The notes under the pieces are model-generated. The model had not been told where the DNA came from and made no database searches. It saw nothing but the letters and a program-made list of their open reading frames with translations. The position numbers and the translations under genes are program-made. From NCBI GenBank assembly GCA_018396975.1, contig JAGTQA010000074.1:1-37086 (forward strand): a stretch of DNA of 37,086 nt, written 5' to 3'. This document shows positions 14,925-21,716 of the stretch, piece by piece. Source of the DNA: Candidatus Bathyarchaeota archaeon. GTDB taxonomy: Archaea > Thermoproteota > Bathyarchaeia > Bathyarchaeales > DTEX01. How positions within the stretch are numbered: the stretch's first letter is position 1; each line of letters begins with the position of its first letter.

Positions 14925-15611
14925 GTGTCGAAGAGCATCCGGGTTAAGGATAAGTGGCGTAGCAAAAAATGGTATACCGTCATAGCCCCACCATACTTTG
15001 GAGGCGTCGAGATAGGCTCTATACCAGCTGATGACCCCCAGAAGATCCTCGGGAGGGTTGTTGAGGCAACCCTATATGATATAACGGAGGACTTCGCACA
15101 CCAATATCTTAAGACATACTTTCAAGTTATAGGTGTGGATGGTAAGAGGGCCCTAACAATATTTAAGGGGCATGAGTATTCTAGGGACTATCTCAGGAGC
15201 CTAGTTAGGAGAAAGACAACTAAGGTTGATGGAATATTCGATATTACAACGAAAGACGGCTATAGATTGAGGGTTGCAGCATGCGCCTTCACAACGACCA
15301 GAATAAAGACCTCACAGGAGAGGGAGATACGCGCAATAATGAGGAGGATTATTGAGGAGAAGGCCAAGACGCTCAACTTCGACCAGTTCGTTCAGGAAGC
15401 CGTCCTCGGCAAGATAGCCTCAGACATATATAATGAAGCCAAGAAGATAGCCGCACTACGCCATGTTGGGATAAGAAAGACGAAGCTCCTCTCGAAACCC
15501 GAGATTCTTGAGGTTAAGGCCATCGAGAAACCTATAGAAGCGGCTGAGGAAGCCCAGCCTGAAGGGGATGAGTCAGCCGAGACCTCTCTCAGCCAAGAGG
15601 ATGCGGAATAA
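14925..15611 (+). CDS. rps3ae: 30S ribosomal protein S3Ae (eS1)
   Basis: 'DKWRSKKWYTVIAPPYFGGVEIGSIPADDP..ILGRVVEATLYDITEDFAHQYLKTYFQV'; GTG start. Confidence 0.95.
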   Translation: MSKSIRVKDKWRSKKWYTVIAPPYFGGVEIGSIPADDPQKILGRVVEATLYDITEDFAHQYLKTYFQVIGVDGKRALTIFKGHEYSRDYLRSLVRRKTTKVDGIFDITTKDGYRLRVAACAFTTTRIKTSQEREIRAIMRRIIEEKAKTLNFDQFVQEAVLGKIASDIYNEAKKIAALRHVGIRKTKLLSKPEILEVKAIEKPIEAAEEAQPEGDESAETSLSQEDAE

Positions 15612-15617
15612 CATTAT

Positions 15618-16274
15618 ATGATTCTAAAAATGGGTCAATCATCTTCTTTCTTAAGGAGAAGGGTTGCTAGGGAAGCAGCCCTCCTACTATATACGCTGCA
15701 GGAGAGGGAGTTTAAGCAGGCTAAGGAGAGGGCTGCTAAAGCATTGGGCGTTAGGGTTCTACCAACCAACCTAGAGGTTGCTGAGGAGCTGGACTCTATC
15801 GCTGATGAGTATGAGGGCGATGCGAGATGGGAGCGCCTAATACGTATGCGTAGGGAAGCCCTCGAGATAATGGAGGCTCTTAAGGATTTTAGTCCTAGGC
15901 TTATAGGCAGCGTTTGGAGGGGGACTGTAAACAGGAATAGCGATATAGATATAGTAGTCTTCTCGCAAAGTAGCAGATCCGTTATAGAAGCCCTTAGGGG
16001 GAAGAGCTTAGAAATAGTGGGGGTTGAGAGAACACCCGCCGCTAAGGACGGGAGCGGTGAGGCAACGCACATATTTATTAAACTTCCATCTGGAGATGAG
16101 GTTGAGGTGGTTGTGAGAGGCCTTGAAGATATGAATAGGGAGGAGCGCTGCGAAATATATGGGGATGTTAAGAGGGGGCTAAGCCTAGATCAGCTGAGGG
16201 AGGTTTTGCGAAGTAATCCGCTCCAGAGGTTCATTCCAAGAAAGAGGGAGAGTCTGGGTGAAGTGCAACCCTAA
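15618..16274 (+). CDS. Nucleotidyltransferase-fold protein (archaeal)
   Basis: 'LIGSVWRGTVNRNSDIDIVVF' = GS-x-RG...SDIDI motif of the MNT/pol-beta-like NTase superfamily. Confidence 0.75.
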   Translation: MILKMGQSSSFLRRRVAREAALLLYTLQEREFKQAKERAAKALGVRVLPTNLEVAEELDSIADEYEGDARWERLIRMRREALEIMEALKDFSPRLIGSVWRGTVNRNSDIDIVVFSQSSRSVIEALRGKSLEIVGVERTPAAKDGSGEATHIFIKLPSGDEVEVVVRGLEDMNREERCEIYGDVKRGLSLDQLREVLRSNPLQRFIPRKRESLGEVQP

Positions 16275-16307: not shown

Positions 16308-16679
16308 TTGATGGTGTGGAGCAGGAGAATAATGGAGATAGATAAAGAGCAATTTAGGAAGATGTTCCCAAACCTCGCTAGGGAGATTGAGGGTGGAGAG
16401 AGCAAGATAACGATATCTTCTGTAAGGCTGGATCCAGAGGAGGGTGAGAGGGCTGCCTCAAAGAAATTTGATGGATACAACCCAGACGTGATCGACTTTC
16501 TAAGAAGATGCGATAATGAGGAGCAGGCTGAGGAGATAATAGCCTATCTGGAGAGGCGGGGTGAGATAAGCCACCAGTACGCCTCAAGCCTAAGAAAGCA
16601 GCTTAAGGAGAAGGGTGTTAGGAGTTTTGGGCCAAAGAAGGGCGAAGCATATTATCTTAGGGAGGCTGGATACAAGTAG
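16308..16679 (+). CDS. Conserved archaeal protein, DUF2095-like
   Basis: 123 aa; 'FRKMFPNLAREI', 'DFLRRCDNEEQAEEIIAYLERRGEISHQYASSLRKQLKEKGVRSFGPKK'. Confidence 0.5.
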   Translation: MMVWSRRIMEIDKEQFRKMFPNLAREIEGGESKITISSVRLDPEEGERAASKKFDGYNPDVIDFLRRCDNEEQAEEIIAYLERRGEISHQYASSLRKQLKEKGVRSFGPKKGEAYYLREAGYK

Positions 16680-16777: not shown

Positions 16778-18559
16778 TTGGGATGTAAGTATAGGTCTCT
16801 GGTAATCCATCTTCTTCTATTCTCTCTCATAATCCTCTATCTGCCCACAAGCATTATTCAGGCTGAGAATAACTCTGCCCAGTATTATGGGAGGGTGTCC
16901 GTCGGTGTAGAGAGGAGGGTAGAGTTCCTCAGCGGCGGCTACATTAGGATAAATGATACATTCACCCTCTCCTTGAATATTTCTGAGAGCGAGTCTCAGC
17001 CCACCGGGGCTACAGCGTATCTCACCGACTACACTGTTGGCGTGCCAAAAAATTACAGCAATAACTTAGTCTATTACTCGGCCCATGACTTTAGAGGCGA
17101 GATGCTCATAACGGCTCTGGAGGATGAGGGGGGATTCTTATGGTTAAAATTATCCTTCCCCGAGCCGATCACGCTTGCCGGTGATGGAATATACAATTTC
17201 ACGGTGACTTATGTCTTTTCCGATATGATTAGGAGGGAGGCTGGTAGGGTCTTTCGAGCCGAGTTTCCGCTATATCCCAGCCTAAGGGAGGAGGCAGCCT
17301 ACTGTAATGTTACGGTTGTCTTCCCATCAGCTGCATCGGTCTCAGAGAGCGATTATCCGAGTGATGTCTTCATTAACAAGACTAGCGACAACAGAATCCT
17401 ATGTAATTCCACCAGCCCGCTCATGGCATACGCAAACATTTCCTCATGGGCTAGGTTCTCAAGCACAACCTTCAGCCTACTAAAATTTCTAAATATGAGG
17501 AGGGAGATTAATATTGAGGGCTGGGGCAAGATTAGTGTAACAGACTTCTACGAGATAAGCGTGGTTAATAATAATGTTATAGGGCTTAATCTCCCATCTG
17601 GCGCATCAGGCATAGTAGTTTATGATGCCTACGGGCAATATGAGAAGAGCAATATAATTATCTCGGAGATGGAGGACTCAGTGTCCGTTAAGGTTATATT
17701 GGGTGAGAAACTCACGGATTATGGAGGTGGCAGAATAGCCGTATCCTATACGCTTCCCTTCTGGAAATATATTGTTAGGGAGGGATGGCAGAACTATATA
17801 TTAAACATAAATCTCACCAAGCCCGACGAGTGGGTGATAGATCATGCATCAATCATAATCGTCCTACCTGAGGGTGCTAGCATCATCCAAGAGAATGGTG
17901 TAAACCTAGCATCTAGTAAGGTCGGTTTATTCCAAGAGAGGGTGGCCGCCGAATACTATAGAGTTACGAGATATCAGAGTTTAGGCCTAAGCATAAAATA
18001 CCAGTATATGATTTTGTGGGCTGCATTTAGACCGACCCTGCTGGCTAGCGCCATAGCTGGTATAATAGGCTTAGCCGCAATAACTGTTAGGTTCATGAGG
18101 CTGGGTAGGGTCAGGGCCGTCATCCCAGCAGCGCATGTTCCGCCCGAAACCCTGAAGAGGTTTATTGAGACCTATGAGGAGAAGATTCGCATAATTTCTG
18201 AAATAGACAGTTTGGACCAGCAGTCTAGGAGGGGTAAGATATCAAGACGCCATTATAGGCTCCAAAGGAGGCTCCTAGAAGAGCGCCTATCAAACATCCA
18301 GAAGGGCATTAACGAGCTCAAGGCGGATATAGAGTCTGCTGGGGGCCACTACACTGACCTAATGAGGCGGCTGGAGGCTGCGAGCGCAAACATAGAGACT
18401 GTAAAAAGAAGTATTGCTGAGGTTGAGATTAGATATGCGCGTGGCGAGATATCGGCCGAGACCCGTCGGAGGCTCATTGAGGAGTATGAGCGTAGGAAGA
18501 GGGAGTCTGAAATCGAGATAGATGATGTTCTTTTAAGCCTTAAAGAGGAGATTTCGTGA
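16778..18559 (+). CDS. Ribophorin I / OST1-like secreted-domain, single-TM, coiled-coil protein
   Basis: Signal peptide; 'EINIEGWGKISVTDFYEISV', 'YTLPFWKYIVREGWQNYILNINL...EWVIDHASIIIVLPEGASI', then one TM (MILWAAFRPTLLASAIAGIIGLAAITV) and a C-terminal coiled coil, the same order as eukaryotic ribophorin I. Confidence 0.7.
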   Translation: MGCKYRSLVIHLLLFSLIILYLPTSIIQAENNSAQYYGRVSVGVERRVEFLSGGYIRINDTFTLSLNISESESQPTGATAYLTDYTVGVPKNYSNNLVYYSAHDFRGEMLITALEDEGGFLWLKLSFPEPITLAGDGIYNFTVTYVFSDMIRREAGRVFRAEFPLYPSLREEAAYCNVTVVFPSAASVSESDYPSDVFINKTSDNRILCNSTSPLMAYANISSWARFSSTTFSLLKFLNMRREINIEGWGKISVTDFYEISVVNNNVIGLNLPSGASGIVVYDAYGQYEKSNIIISEMEDSVSVKVILGEKLTDYGGGRIAVSYTLPFWKYIVREGWQNYILNINLTKPDEWVIDHASIIIVLPEGASIIQENGVNLASSKVGLFQERVAAEYYRVTRYQSLGLSIKYQYMILWAAFRPTLLASAIAGIIGLAAITVRFMRLGRVRAVIPAAHVPPETLKRFIETYEEKIRIISEIDSLDQQSRRGKISRRHYRLQRRLLEERLSNIQKGINELKADIESAGGHYTDLMRRLEAASANIETVKRSIAEVEIRYARGEISAETRRRLIEEYERRKRESEIEIDDVLLSLKEEIS

Positions 18560-18634: not shown

Positions 18635-19483
18635 ATGGCGGTAAGGGGGATGTCGCCGAGAATATTTTGGAGAGACCTACAAGATTATTTTGGTCTCTCA
18701 GAGTATGAGGCAAAGGCCTACGAGTTTCTGGTGGGGGAGGGCCCCTCAACCGCTAGGAGGATAAGTGTGGCATGTGGGATTCCAAGGACGAAGATCTATG
18801 AAACCCTAAAGAAGCTCATTGAATATGAGATGATCATTGAGGTCCCGGTCAATCCTAAGCGCTTCGCGGCTCTGCCACCAAGCGAAGTCTTAAGGCCCAT
18901 ACTTAAGCTTCAAAAGATGGCTATTAGACGCTTTAATGAAATTGTTTGGAGTTTGCAGAAGAGATATGAGAGGACGATATCTTTAACCAGCATGTTGAGG
19001 GGGGAGTTCTGGCTCTTCCTCGGATCAGATACTATAAAGGGTGTTTCAGACGTGTTATCTAAGGCGAGAAGGGAGATCGTCACCCTACTCTCATGGGGTT
19101 CCTTTGCTCAATTCTACAATGTTTTTGGGAGACTACTTGATGGATTAGTTGAGCGTGGGGTGAAAGTTCAAGTGTGCTTCTCAGCCGACTCGGAGATAGA
19201 TCGAAGAATCTGCAGAAATATAGGCTTAAACTATAAGGTTGTCAACATTAACCTATCCTCCTCAATAATTTTCCTAAGGGTTGACGATGAATATTTAATA
19301 GTATATGTGCCGCTTAGAAGCAGTGGACTAACCAATGGCGATGGCGTAGCGGTTCTACTCAAAAATCGAATATTAAGCAGCTTACTCGATGAGGTTCTCT
19401 GGGGTTCGTCGCGATTGGAGGGAAGGGGCCAATCAATAAATCATCTGATGGGGTTAGCACCCCCGGCTGCACACCAACACTAA
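18635..19483 (+). CDS. TrmB-family transcriptional regulator
   Basis: 'YFGLSEYEAKAYEFLVGEGPSTARRISVACGIPRTKIYETLKKLIEYEMI' TrmB winged HTH plus a phospholipase-D-like-fold C-terminal region. Confidence 0.85.
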   Translation: MAVRGMSPRIFWRDLQDYFGLSEYEAKAYEFLVGEGPSTARRISVACGIPRTKIYETLKKLIEYEMIIEVPVNPKRFAALPPSEVLRPILKLQKMAIRRFNEIVWSLQKRYERTISLTSMLRGEFWLFLGSDTIKGVSDVLSKARREIVTLLSWGSFAQFYNVFGRLLDGLVERGVKVQVCFSADSEIDRRICRNIGLNYKVVNINLSSSIIFLRVDDEYLIVYVPLRSSGLTNGDGVAVLLKNRILSSLLDEVLWGSSRLEGRGQSINHLMGLAPPAAHQH

Positions 19484-19514: not shown

Positions 19515-20546
19515 TCATACGCTTCGACATCTTCTTTTAGAGAGGAATTGCACCCCAATAATTACTAGCTGATAAGCTATGATCCATAGCATAGAGTATA
19601 ATGGCCCATAGTAATTGTGGAAGCGCTGGACCTCTAGGGATGTAGCACCATACTCCACCGCTAACATGAAAATTCTCACTATTCTCAAAGCATTAATGAG
19701 GTATGTGATTATAGCGCCTATTAAGAAGTAGGCTGCTTTCCGCCTCCACGAAAAATCCTCATCCTTCAAAAATAATATAGTTATGACCGAGTATATTATG
19801 AGACTATCTATGCCGGAGCACGGCCAAGCTATGCCGAATGCAGCCTCCCCCCTATCGCTCCAAACCCTTAAAACTGGTGTCTTATAGGACTGCCCCTCTA
19901 GATCAACCCTATAGCCCATTAAGGCTAGGAGGTTCGATGCTAATATCGCTGTGGATGGGACGAGTATCTGGAATGGTGTAAACTCTCCGAAGGGATAGAG
20001 GTTATCTATGAGGTAGATTGCGCCCAAAATCCCTATTAGGGTTATTGGTAGGAGGAAGTATCTTAAGCCTTTAATGCCGTAAGCCAATACTGCCATGACT
20101 AGAGATAGTATTGTGAAGACAAGATATTCTACTGTGAGCGGCATTGTTCTCGACCACCAATCCAGCCCATAATGTTTGGGGGATATTTCCATTATTAGCG
20201 TGTTGAGGCCGGAGAAGTATGCAGCTAAAACATATACTGTTGGGAGTAGGGACACGATAAATAGCGTTATTAGGCGGCTGGACCTAACCTCCTGAATCTT
20301 TAATGGGATCTCCTTCCAATTCATGGAGAGTTCAAGGGAGGAAAGCCATAGAAAGAAGAGGTAGTATGCTCTGCCCTTCCAAGTCTCCTCATATGAGCTC
20401 GGATATAAAATCCACAATATGAGGAAGGATATTGCGAAGGACACGACGAAGAGAACCTTTAATATACTAAACAATCGAATTTTTATGGTGGTCGAAGCCT
20501 TCTCTCTCAGCAGCCGCACTAAAATGCGCAGTAAATTTGCCATCAC
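19515..20546 (-). CDS. Exosortase/archaeosortase family transmembrane protease
   Basis: Multiple TM helices with Cys/Arg/His motifs in order: 'IAWPCSGIDSLIIYSVI', 'YLINALRIVRIFML', 'RFHNYYGPLYSMLW'. Confidence 0.85.
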   Translation of the reverse strand: MMANLLRILVRLLREKASTTIKIRLFSILKVLFVVSFAISFLILWILYPSSYEETWKGRAYYLFFLWLSSLELSMNWKEIPLKIQEVRSSRLITLFIVSLLPTVYVLAAYFSGLNTLIMEISPKHYGLDWWSRTMPLTVEYLVFTILSLVMAVLAYGIKGLRYFLLPITLIGILGAIYLIDNLYPFGEFTPFQILVPSTAILASNLLALMGYRVDLEGQSYKTPVLRVWSDRGEAAFGIAWPCSGIDSLIIYSVITILFLKDEDFSWRRKAAYFLIGAIITYLINALRIVRIFMLAVEYGATSLEVQRFHNYYGPLYSMLWIIAYQLVIIGVQFLSKRRCRSV

Positions 20547-20660: not shown

Positions 20661-21716
20661 TTAAATAGACCAGTATCTTGATTGAACCCTCTTTACAGCC
20701 TCAATTATTTTCTCCGCCCCCTTCTGGGCTGCTAGATTTATGGGCGGCCTCCTATCCATAATTTTAATCGCCATGCCAGCCATTCTAGCTATGCATGCTG
20801 CAGCAGCCCTTCTGAGCAGCCAAGTGTTATATCCGCCCTCTAGAACCGCCACCAACCTACCACCGCACACTTTATGCGCCAGATCATGTATTACGCCGAA
20901 GATTTTTGGGTATATTTGGGCTGATAGGGCTAAGTTTCCAATACCATCCCTATAATATCCGTCGAAGCCGGCTGAGACAAGTATGAACTGCGGCCTATAC
21001 TGTTCCGCTATGGGTAGAACTACTGTCTTCATGGCCCTCCAGTATGCTGGGTCGCCTGATCCATATGGAAGCGGTATATTAACTGTGTATCCGCGCCCCT
21101 CACCAGCGCCAACCTCCCATATGAAGCCCGTTCCGGGAAATTCCCTTGGATCCTCATGTATGCTCATGTAGAGCACGCTGCTGGTGTCATAGAATATGTC
21201 CTGTGTCCCATTACCATGATGTGTGTCTATATCGAGGATTAGAATCCTCTCCAGCCCATGCTTCCTCTGTAGGTATCTTGCCGCTATGGCAACATTATTG
21301 AATATGCAGAATCCCTCTGAGTAGTCCGGACCAGCATGGTGGCCCGGGGGCCTAATAAGCGCAAATGCATTACTGAACTCGCCAGAAATAACCCTCTCCA
21401 CAGCCTCGATTGCGCCCCCAGCGGCCATTATAGCGACATCAAAGCTCTCTGCGGATACTTCGGTCTCCTCGTCAAGCAGTCCTCCCCCAGCGCTACATAT
21501 GGATCTAACCCTATTTATATGCTCAGCTTTGTGGATTGACTCTAGATCCTCCATGCTTGCTGGCCTAGGCTCTATTAGCCTAATGCATCCAGTCTCGATT
21601 AGGCGGCTCTCTAATATGCCATTTATTATTGCAGTTAGTCGCCGTGGCCTCTCTGGATGCCGGCCTCCAGTTCTATGATCTAGGTATCTTGGCGTGTATA
21701 TTATTGCCGTTCCCAT
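20661..21716 (-). CDS. Histone deacetylase / AcuC-like family protein
   Basis: 'HPERPRRL', 'RPPGHHAG', 'FNNVAIAARYL', 'DIDTHHGNGTQDIFYD', 'SAGFDGYYRDGIGNL', 'LEGGYN'. Confidence 0.93.
   Translation of the reverse strand: MGTAIIYTPRYLDHRTGGRHPERPRRLTAIINGILESRLIETGCIRLIEPRPASMEDLESIHKAEHINRVRSICSAGGGLLDEETEVSAESFDVAIMAAGGAIEAVERVISGEFSNAFALIRPPGHHAGPDYSEGFCIFNNVAIAARYLQRKHGLERILILDIDTHHGNGTQDIFYDTSSVLYMSIHEDPREFPGTGFIWEVGAGEGRGYTVNIPLPYGSGDPAYWRAMKTVVLPIAEQYRPQFILVSAGFDGYYRDGIGNLALSAQIYPKIFGVIHDLAHKVCGGRLVAVLEGGYNTWLLRRAAAACIARMAGMAIKIMDRRPPINLAAQKGAEKIIEAVKRVQSRYWSI

Follow-up and report, generated by a model that had tools for sequence, protein, structure and literature searches.

The window, which is the whole stretch of DNA that was analysed (37,086 nucleotides), contained an unbroken reading frame of 593 residues on the forward strand, and all three of the protein blocks cited in the initial annotation were found in this frame. 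The frame and its neighbors are laid out as follows.

14925..15611, forward strand: ribosomal protein S3Ae (eS1), syntenic (PF01015, 7.9e-76); adjoins the OST1 locus in the order
15618..16274, forward strand: nucleotidyltransferase-domain protein, syntenic (PF01909, 5.9e-6; conserved synteny)
16308..16679, forward strand: DUF2095 protein, syntenic (PF09868, 2.1e-31; conserved synteny)
16778..18559, forward strand: OST1/ribophorin I homologue, 593 aa, TTG start (PF04597, 2.1e-7; Foldseek to human and yeast OST1, 9.8e-29 to 1.2e-19)
16778..16864, forward strand: signal peptide of OST1, approximately residues 1-29 (hydrophobic helix, Kyte-Doolittle maximum 2.31; modelled helix 3-33)
16895..17461, forward strand: extracellular beta domain 1, residues 40-228 (from the model; region aligned to human OST1 10-254 by the A2 profile)
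17276-17278, forward strand: P167 in beta domain 1, near-invariant among 27 sequences
17477..18004, forward strand: extracellular beta domain 2, residues 234-409 (site of the Pfam match; aligned to human OST1 from residue 273)
17624-17626, forward strand: D283 in beta domain 2, near-invariant among 27 sequences, paired with the D of human 'RDEIG'
18011..18115, forward strand: transmembrane helix, residues 412-446 (from the model; hydropathy maximum 2.03 at residue 420)
18143..18553, forward strand: cytosolic four-helix bundle, residues 456-592, basic (Foldseek TM-score 0.88 to 8whn; profile to 8whn_A, 2.3e-21)
18635..19483, forward strand: TrmB-type regulator, syntenic (PF01978, 3.5e-20); adjoins OST1 in close relatives
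20661..21716, reverse strand: histone-deacetylase family protein, syntenic (PF00850, 1.8e-96); kept next to OST1 by most families of the order

Hydropathy and an AlphaFold2 model built on A1, an alignment of 14 Bathyarchaeia sequences, indicated a type I layout with a signal peptide, for which the cleavage site is approximate, and a single transmembrane helix. The model (mean pLDDT 82.9) opens with a hydrophobic helix at the N-terminus; two beta domains come next (about residues 40-228 and 234-409), then a helix that spans the membrane (412-446) and, last, four long helices (456-592). The top eight matches of the model to PDB entries by Foldseek were all human or yeast OST1, with the human chains in the order 8b6l_O (9.8e-29), 6s7o_E (4.1e-25), 8pn9_E and 6s7t_E (1.3e-23, TMt 0.70) and the yeast chains in the order 6ezn_A (7.9e-22), 8agb_E, 7oci_A and 6c26_1 (1.2e-19); the first protein other than OST1 was found at 5.3e-6. 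The model and the Foldseek matches agree in assigning the OST1 fold to both luminal beta domains. High overall rmsd values were noted against full human chains, probably because the relative placement of domains in the model is unsure (pTM 0.58). The four-helix bundle, which superposed on the corresponding region of OST1 from the Asgard archaeon Ca. Prometheoarchaeum syntrophicum MK-D1 (8whn; PMC11417166) with a TM-score of 0.88 and an rmsd of 1.9 over 142 columns at 25% identity, is the counterpart of the OST1 ribosome-binding domain. The signal peptide, beta-rich ectodomain and single transmembrane segment described in the initial annotation stood, as did the comparison that it had proposed with the luminal domains of Ost1, while the region it described as a charged coiled coil of about 130 residues is better described as a four-helix bundle.

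Agreement with OST1 was also evident from sequence comparisons. The window protein matched PF04597 (Ribophorin_I) with a score of 30.8 bits, above the gathering cut-off of 25, over a span of only about 60 residues when searched alone, and 11 of the 14 sequences in A1 matched this family, the best at 3.3e-16. In phmmer searches of PDB sequences, residues 272-372 aligned with residues 284-383 of human OST1 (6s7o_E, E=5e-4) and residues 453-587 with the cytosolic domain of MK-D1 OST1 (8whn_A, E=3e-6); the first of these alignments bears out the earlier claim that blocks of the protein line up with human ribophorin I, and the human blocks that it quoted are real. Matches to human OST1 and 8whn_A were at 5.8e-13 and 3.8e-12, respectively, for the A1 profile. 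The profile of A2, an alignment of 27 sequences from across the phylum, matched human OST1 at 4.5e-37 over nearly its full length, in two stretches (human residues 10-254 and 273-607) of which the second corresponds to domain 2, the transmembrane helix and the cytosolic part, and matched MK-D1 OST1 (8whn_A) at 2.3e-21. Two columns, those of P167 and D283, were near-invariant in A2. Eukaryotic OST1/RPN1 (human 6s7o_E, yeast 6c26_1) likewise has two luminal beta domains and one transmembrane helix, and the human protein has in addition a cytosolic bundle. Yeast Ost1, which is without this bundle, was aligned by the A2 profile over the ectodomain region only (2.5e-14, residues 21-454). By sequence profile and modelled fold alike, the window protein, which is about 15% identical to eukaryotic OST1, is a true relative of ribophorin I/OST1, as the initial annotation had proposed for an archaeal genome. 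Neither of the two results that the initial annotation had listed as refuting it, the lack of a significant PF04597 match and a fold unlike the two Ost1 luminal domains, was obtained. The identification names a gene that no NCBIfam model covers.

The family includes several domain variants. The part after the transmembrane helix was net basic in all 27 members and, in 25 of these, consisted of 146-160 residues with a net positive charge. Two members of family f21 (L148:4816-6087, reverse strand, and L149:4890-6179, forward strand), which are 424 and 430 aa in length, have just 25-40 residues after the transmembrane helix, and are OST1 homologues that kept the ectodomain without the cytosolic four-helix bundle, a state shared with yeast Ost1. 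Domain 1 was absent from members of 412-467 aa in three genera (g2, g3 and g5) of the family to which the window belongs, and was swapped in genus g11 of family f4 (genomes G008-G010) for an unrelated region at the N-terminus that contains stretches of the type 'ASLTGTIYDSGVDTDDDG', in the following OST1 homologues, all of which kept domain 2, the transmembrane helix and the bundle.

L093:865-2448, forward strand: g11 OST1 homologue
L095:919-2814, reverse strand: g11 OST1 homologue
L100:1042-2640, reverse strand: g11 OST1 homologue

Both luminal domains were retained in most members and domain 2 was found in every variant examined. Domain 2 and the transmembrane helix therefore form the constant core of the family, since the variants drop or replace either domain 1 or the bundle.

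The catalytic subunit, STT3/AglB, was found in 146 of the 163 genomes of the order. It was also found in the same genome as the window OST1 (STT3, 2.4e-34, contig G000:C1), where AglB is a protein of 741 aa (L114:5082-7307) with a WWDYG motif in its translation. STT3 was undetected in three genomes that contained OST1 and were each at least 90% complete (G107, G029 and G162), perhaps as a result of gaps in these MAGs. The initial annotation had advised a search for STT3/AglB and OST3/6-like genes; both are encoded, the latter as a membrane-only protein next to AglB.

L114:4239-4646 (contig G000:C1), reverse strand: OST3/6-family membrane protein, 135 aa, divergent from AglB (PF04756, 2.7e-7)

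This protein matched PF04756 at profile positions 169-285 only, which represent the membrane part of OST3_OST6, and the thioredoxin domain that is fused to the membrane domain in OST3/OST6 and MAGT1/TUSC3 was absent from it. The A3 profile, made from 19 proteins of this kind, matched human OSTC/DC2 (6s7o_H) at 7.4e-12 as opposed to 0.46 for MAGT1. The 135-aa protein is thus a membrane domain alone, nearer to OSTC than to MAGT1, and resembles human OSTC/DC2 in being short; it differs in being archaeal and in that its bridging to SecYE is putative. Among solved structures, human OSTC/DC2 is the one to which it is closest. The OSTC-like gene is linked to AglB across the order and was located no more than 8 kb from it in 53 of 66 genomes tallied. 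Matches to the thioredoxin portion of PF04756 (about profile positions 2-104) were discounted, since they probably mark ordinary thioredoxins and were seen also in controls, e.g., E. coli. On the other side of AglB and convergent with it, a gene (L114:7622-8761, contig G000:C1, reverse strand) encodes a Trx-DsbD membrane protein of 379 aa, which has a CxxC in its N-terminal part as well as a DsbD_TM domain; as a candidate oxidoreductase partner of AglB this protein was rejected, no homologue having been found in the other AglB loci fetched. At two other loci, the gene after AglB encodes a glycosylphosphotransferase of the MraY/GPT type.

Compared with the eukaryotic Sec61/OST/TRAP translocon and with subcomplex I (Ost1-Ost5) of the eukaryotic OST, other parts were unmatched. 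No match to TRAP-beta (PF05753) was found at E≤1 in the source genome, the assembly of which is 93% complete. Searches for Ost5/TMEM258 (PF05251) gave nothing above cut-off in the 163 genomes of the order, where a very short protein could be missed, and nothing at E≤0.01 in the source genome. The complex, if formed, would therefore not be of the full eukaryotic type. MK-D1 is likewise an archaeon whose genome encodes AglB/STT3 and a protein of the OST3/6 family besides OST1, but it belongs to a different phylum and, in contrast with the source genome and its lack of a TRAP-beta match, reportedly possesses the alpha, beta and gamma subunits of TRAP (PMC11417166).

The reading that we favor, with a probability of roughly 0.78, is that OST1 belongs, as a non-catalytic subunit, to an archaeal OST that is built around AglB/STT3 and docks on the ribosome and the translocon. 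As a type I membrane protein, OST1 would place its two beta domains outside the cell, a single helix in the membrane and the basic four-helix bundle in the cytoplasm. The outer domains may lie beside the active site of AglB and hold the emerging acceptor chain, while the bundle would bind the large ribosomal subunit and the OSTC/DC2-like protein encoded beside AglB would bridge AglB to SecYE. To our knowledge archaea are without an endoplasmic reticulum, and archaeal OST1 would for this reason be located at the cell membrane, as opposed to the ER location of eukaryotic OST1; there, OST1, AglB and the OSTC-like protein would together link N-glycosylation with translation as well as translocation. 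Ribophorin I keeps the protein-glycosylating enzyme of eukaryotes at the ribosome. In mammals, the cytosolic domain of RPN1 touches the 60S subunit in cryo-EM, and DC2/OSTC bridges STT3A to Sec61, also from cryo-EM, for co-translational glycosylation (PMC6929149). Similarly, the cytosolic domains of both MK-D1 and human OST1 bind ribosomes in pull-down experiments (PMC11417166). Parts like those of mammals and MK-D1 occur here, and the likeliest role of the window protein is therefore that of an OST subunit holding AglB close to the ribosome during translation. Physical assembly of this complex, binding of ribosomes by the window OST1 and an effect of this protein on glycosylation are predictions of the proposed role in N-glycosylation. 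Observations that weigh against this reading are the location of the OST1 gene away from AglB, the three genomes with OST1 in which STT3 was undetected, the eight high-quality genomes with no detected OST1, the loss or replacement of domain 1 in some genera and the unmatched TRAP-beta and Ost5.

The main rival reading holds that the OST1 homologue works at the membrane independently of AglB, serving as a receptor for ribosomes or a translocon-side anchor, and that the glycosylation role was added later in the Asgard/eukaryote line. Consistent with such a role, the bundle was kept in 25 of 27 members while luminal domain 1 was lost or replaced in several genera, the OST1 gene does not adjoin AglB and sits instead beside S3Ae in a translation-related block, and three nearly complete genomes with OST1 were those noted above in which STT3 was undetected. 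However, AglB is also present in most genomes with OST1, the luminal part persists in the family (both domains in most members and domain 2 throughout the variants examined) and the f21 proteins keep the ectodomain and lose the bundle, a pattern hard to reconcile with a role as ribosome receptor alone. We therefore regard a role independent of AglB as unlikely, and the OST-subunit reading as the better account of these observations.

The source assembly is a Bathyarchaeia MAG of 1.1 Mb in 75 contigs. The S3Ae gene of the window, 1.9 kb upstream of OST1, was 95% identical to a Candidatus Bathyarchaeota MAG, and the best 80 S3Ae matches were nearly all from Bathyarchaeota MAGs; the genome is not Asgard, and the expectation in the initial annotation that OST1 would in this case extend beyond Asgard archaea has been realized. 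Among the 163 genomes of the order, OST1 was detected in 61 by PF04597 alone and in 136 by the A1 profile, which found it in 80 of 88 high-quality genomes and left it undetected in eight. In a phylum sample of 397 genomes, the A2 profile gave matches in 247, the weak ones including coiled-coil proteins. Some matches spanned the helical region alone, in ORFs about 190-290 aa long; these probably represent CdvA or other coiled-coil proteins and were excluded as OST1, and for this reason the count, tallied by hand, was restricted to matches at E of about 1e-20 or better, of which there were examples in 82 genomes from 27 families outside the class. The Pfam model independently confirmed five of ten proteins from beyond the order, of which one belonged to the same class and the remaining four to different classes, and had no match in any of 14 control genomes, including those of Sulfolobus acidocaldarius, Haloferax volcanii and Methanocaldococcus jannaschii. 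The OST1 family, with members in at least 27 families outside the class, is thus widespread in Thermoproteota.

The gene block made up of SerRS, S3Ae, the nucleotidyltransferase, DUF2095, OST1, TrmB, histone deacetylase and AsnB was conserved to a varying degree across the order; proximity of OST1 to S3Ae was looked for outside the order and not found there. Between the TrmB and histone-deacetylase genes of the window, an exosortase/archaeosortase family protein is encoded at 19515-20546 on the reverse strand (TIGR04178, above cut-off), for which the nearest named model was thaumarchaeosortase, well under the cut-off of that model.

That the OST1 gene of the window was acquired laterally from Asgard archaea or from eukaryotes in recent times, or is an artefact of binning, is highly improbable. 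The sequence does come from a MAG in many contigs, and the tree (30 rows, with long end branches), which served as a test of the Bathyarchaeia group, was made without full-length Asgard sequences. Nevertheless, archaeal housekeeping genes flank OST1 in one and the same order throughout Bathyarchaeia, and this conserved order argues against both explanations. In addition, the Bathyarchaeia sequences formed one group in the tree (support 96/95) with the eukaryotic pair outside, deeper branches being unresolved, and divergent homologues were found in the 27 families noted above from other classes of the phylum. Least probable of all, and already largely refuted, is a convergent or generic likeness of an archaeal surface protein that has beta-sandwich domains, a transmembrane helix and a coiled coil but is unrelated to OST, since resemblance of single beta domains of the model to M1 aminopeptidase domains, a weak match of the bundle region to CdvA and the short Pfam match of the window protein alone are outweighed by the order of the domains and an alignment with human OST1 over the full length (4.5e-37), by the fold search, in which more than 13 orders of magnitude set the lowest-ranked OST1 apart from the best match of any other kind, and by the lack of Pfam family matches in the 14 control genomes.

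From the Bathyarchaeia OST1 and the spread of the family through the phylum, it follows that the OST1 part of the glycosylation machinery is probably older than both eukaryotes and Asgard archaea. OST accessory subunits have mostly been discussed as eukaryotic inventions or as an Asgard inheritance. No prokaryotic candidates were found in 2016 (PMC4973528), ribophorin was described as found in mammals only in a 2022 eLife paper (PMC8993221), Ost1 and Ost3 were named from Asgard archaea only in a 2023 Nature paper (PMC10307638), and DC2/OSTC has been described as restricted to vertebrates (PMC6929149). The occurrence of OST1 in TACK archaea is nonetheless already known from 2024, when a single sentence placed OST1 and OST3/6 in eukaryotes, TACK and Asgard archaea (PMC11417166). 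The present results go further than that statement in how widely the family occurs, in its synteny and domain variants and in the OSTC-like gene next to AglB; for these, no earlier description was found in open-licence papers, and no description of ribophorin in Bathyarchaeota was found in the same literature. Should both OST1 and an OSTC-like adaptor prove common throughout Thermoproteota, the coupling of N-glycosylation with the ribosome and the Sec channel would predate the ER and could be studied in archaea. More tentatively, and at somewhat under even odds, the common ancestor of TACK and Asgard archaea may have had a multi-subunit, ribosome- and translocon-docked OST of the STT3A type, composed of AglB, OST1 with its ribosome-binding bundle and a thioredoxin-less OSTC/DC2-like Sec adaptor. 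The OST3/6 thioredoxin domain, TRAP and Wbp1/Swp1 would then have joined at a later stage, in the Asgard/eukaryote line or close to it.

Within the bundle of the window protein, two helix-helix turns were noted to carry similar motifs, RRGKISRRHY (residues 484-493, window 18227-18256) and ARGEISAETRR (residues 554-564, window 18437-18469), and their similarity suggests a duplicated helical hairpin.
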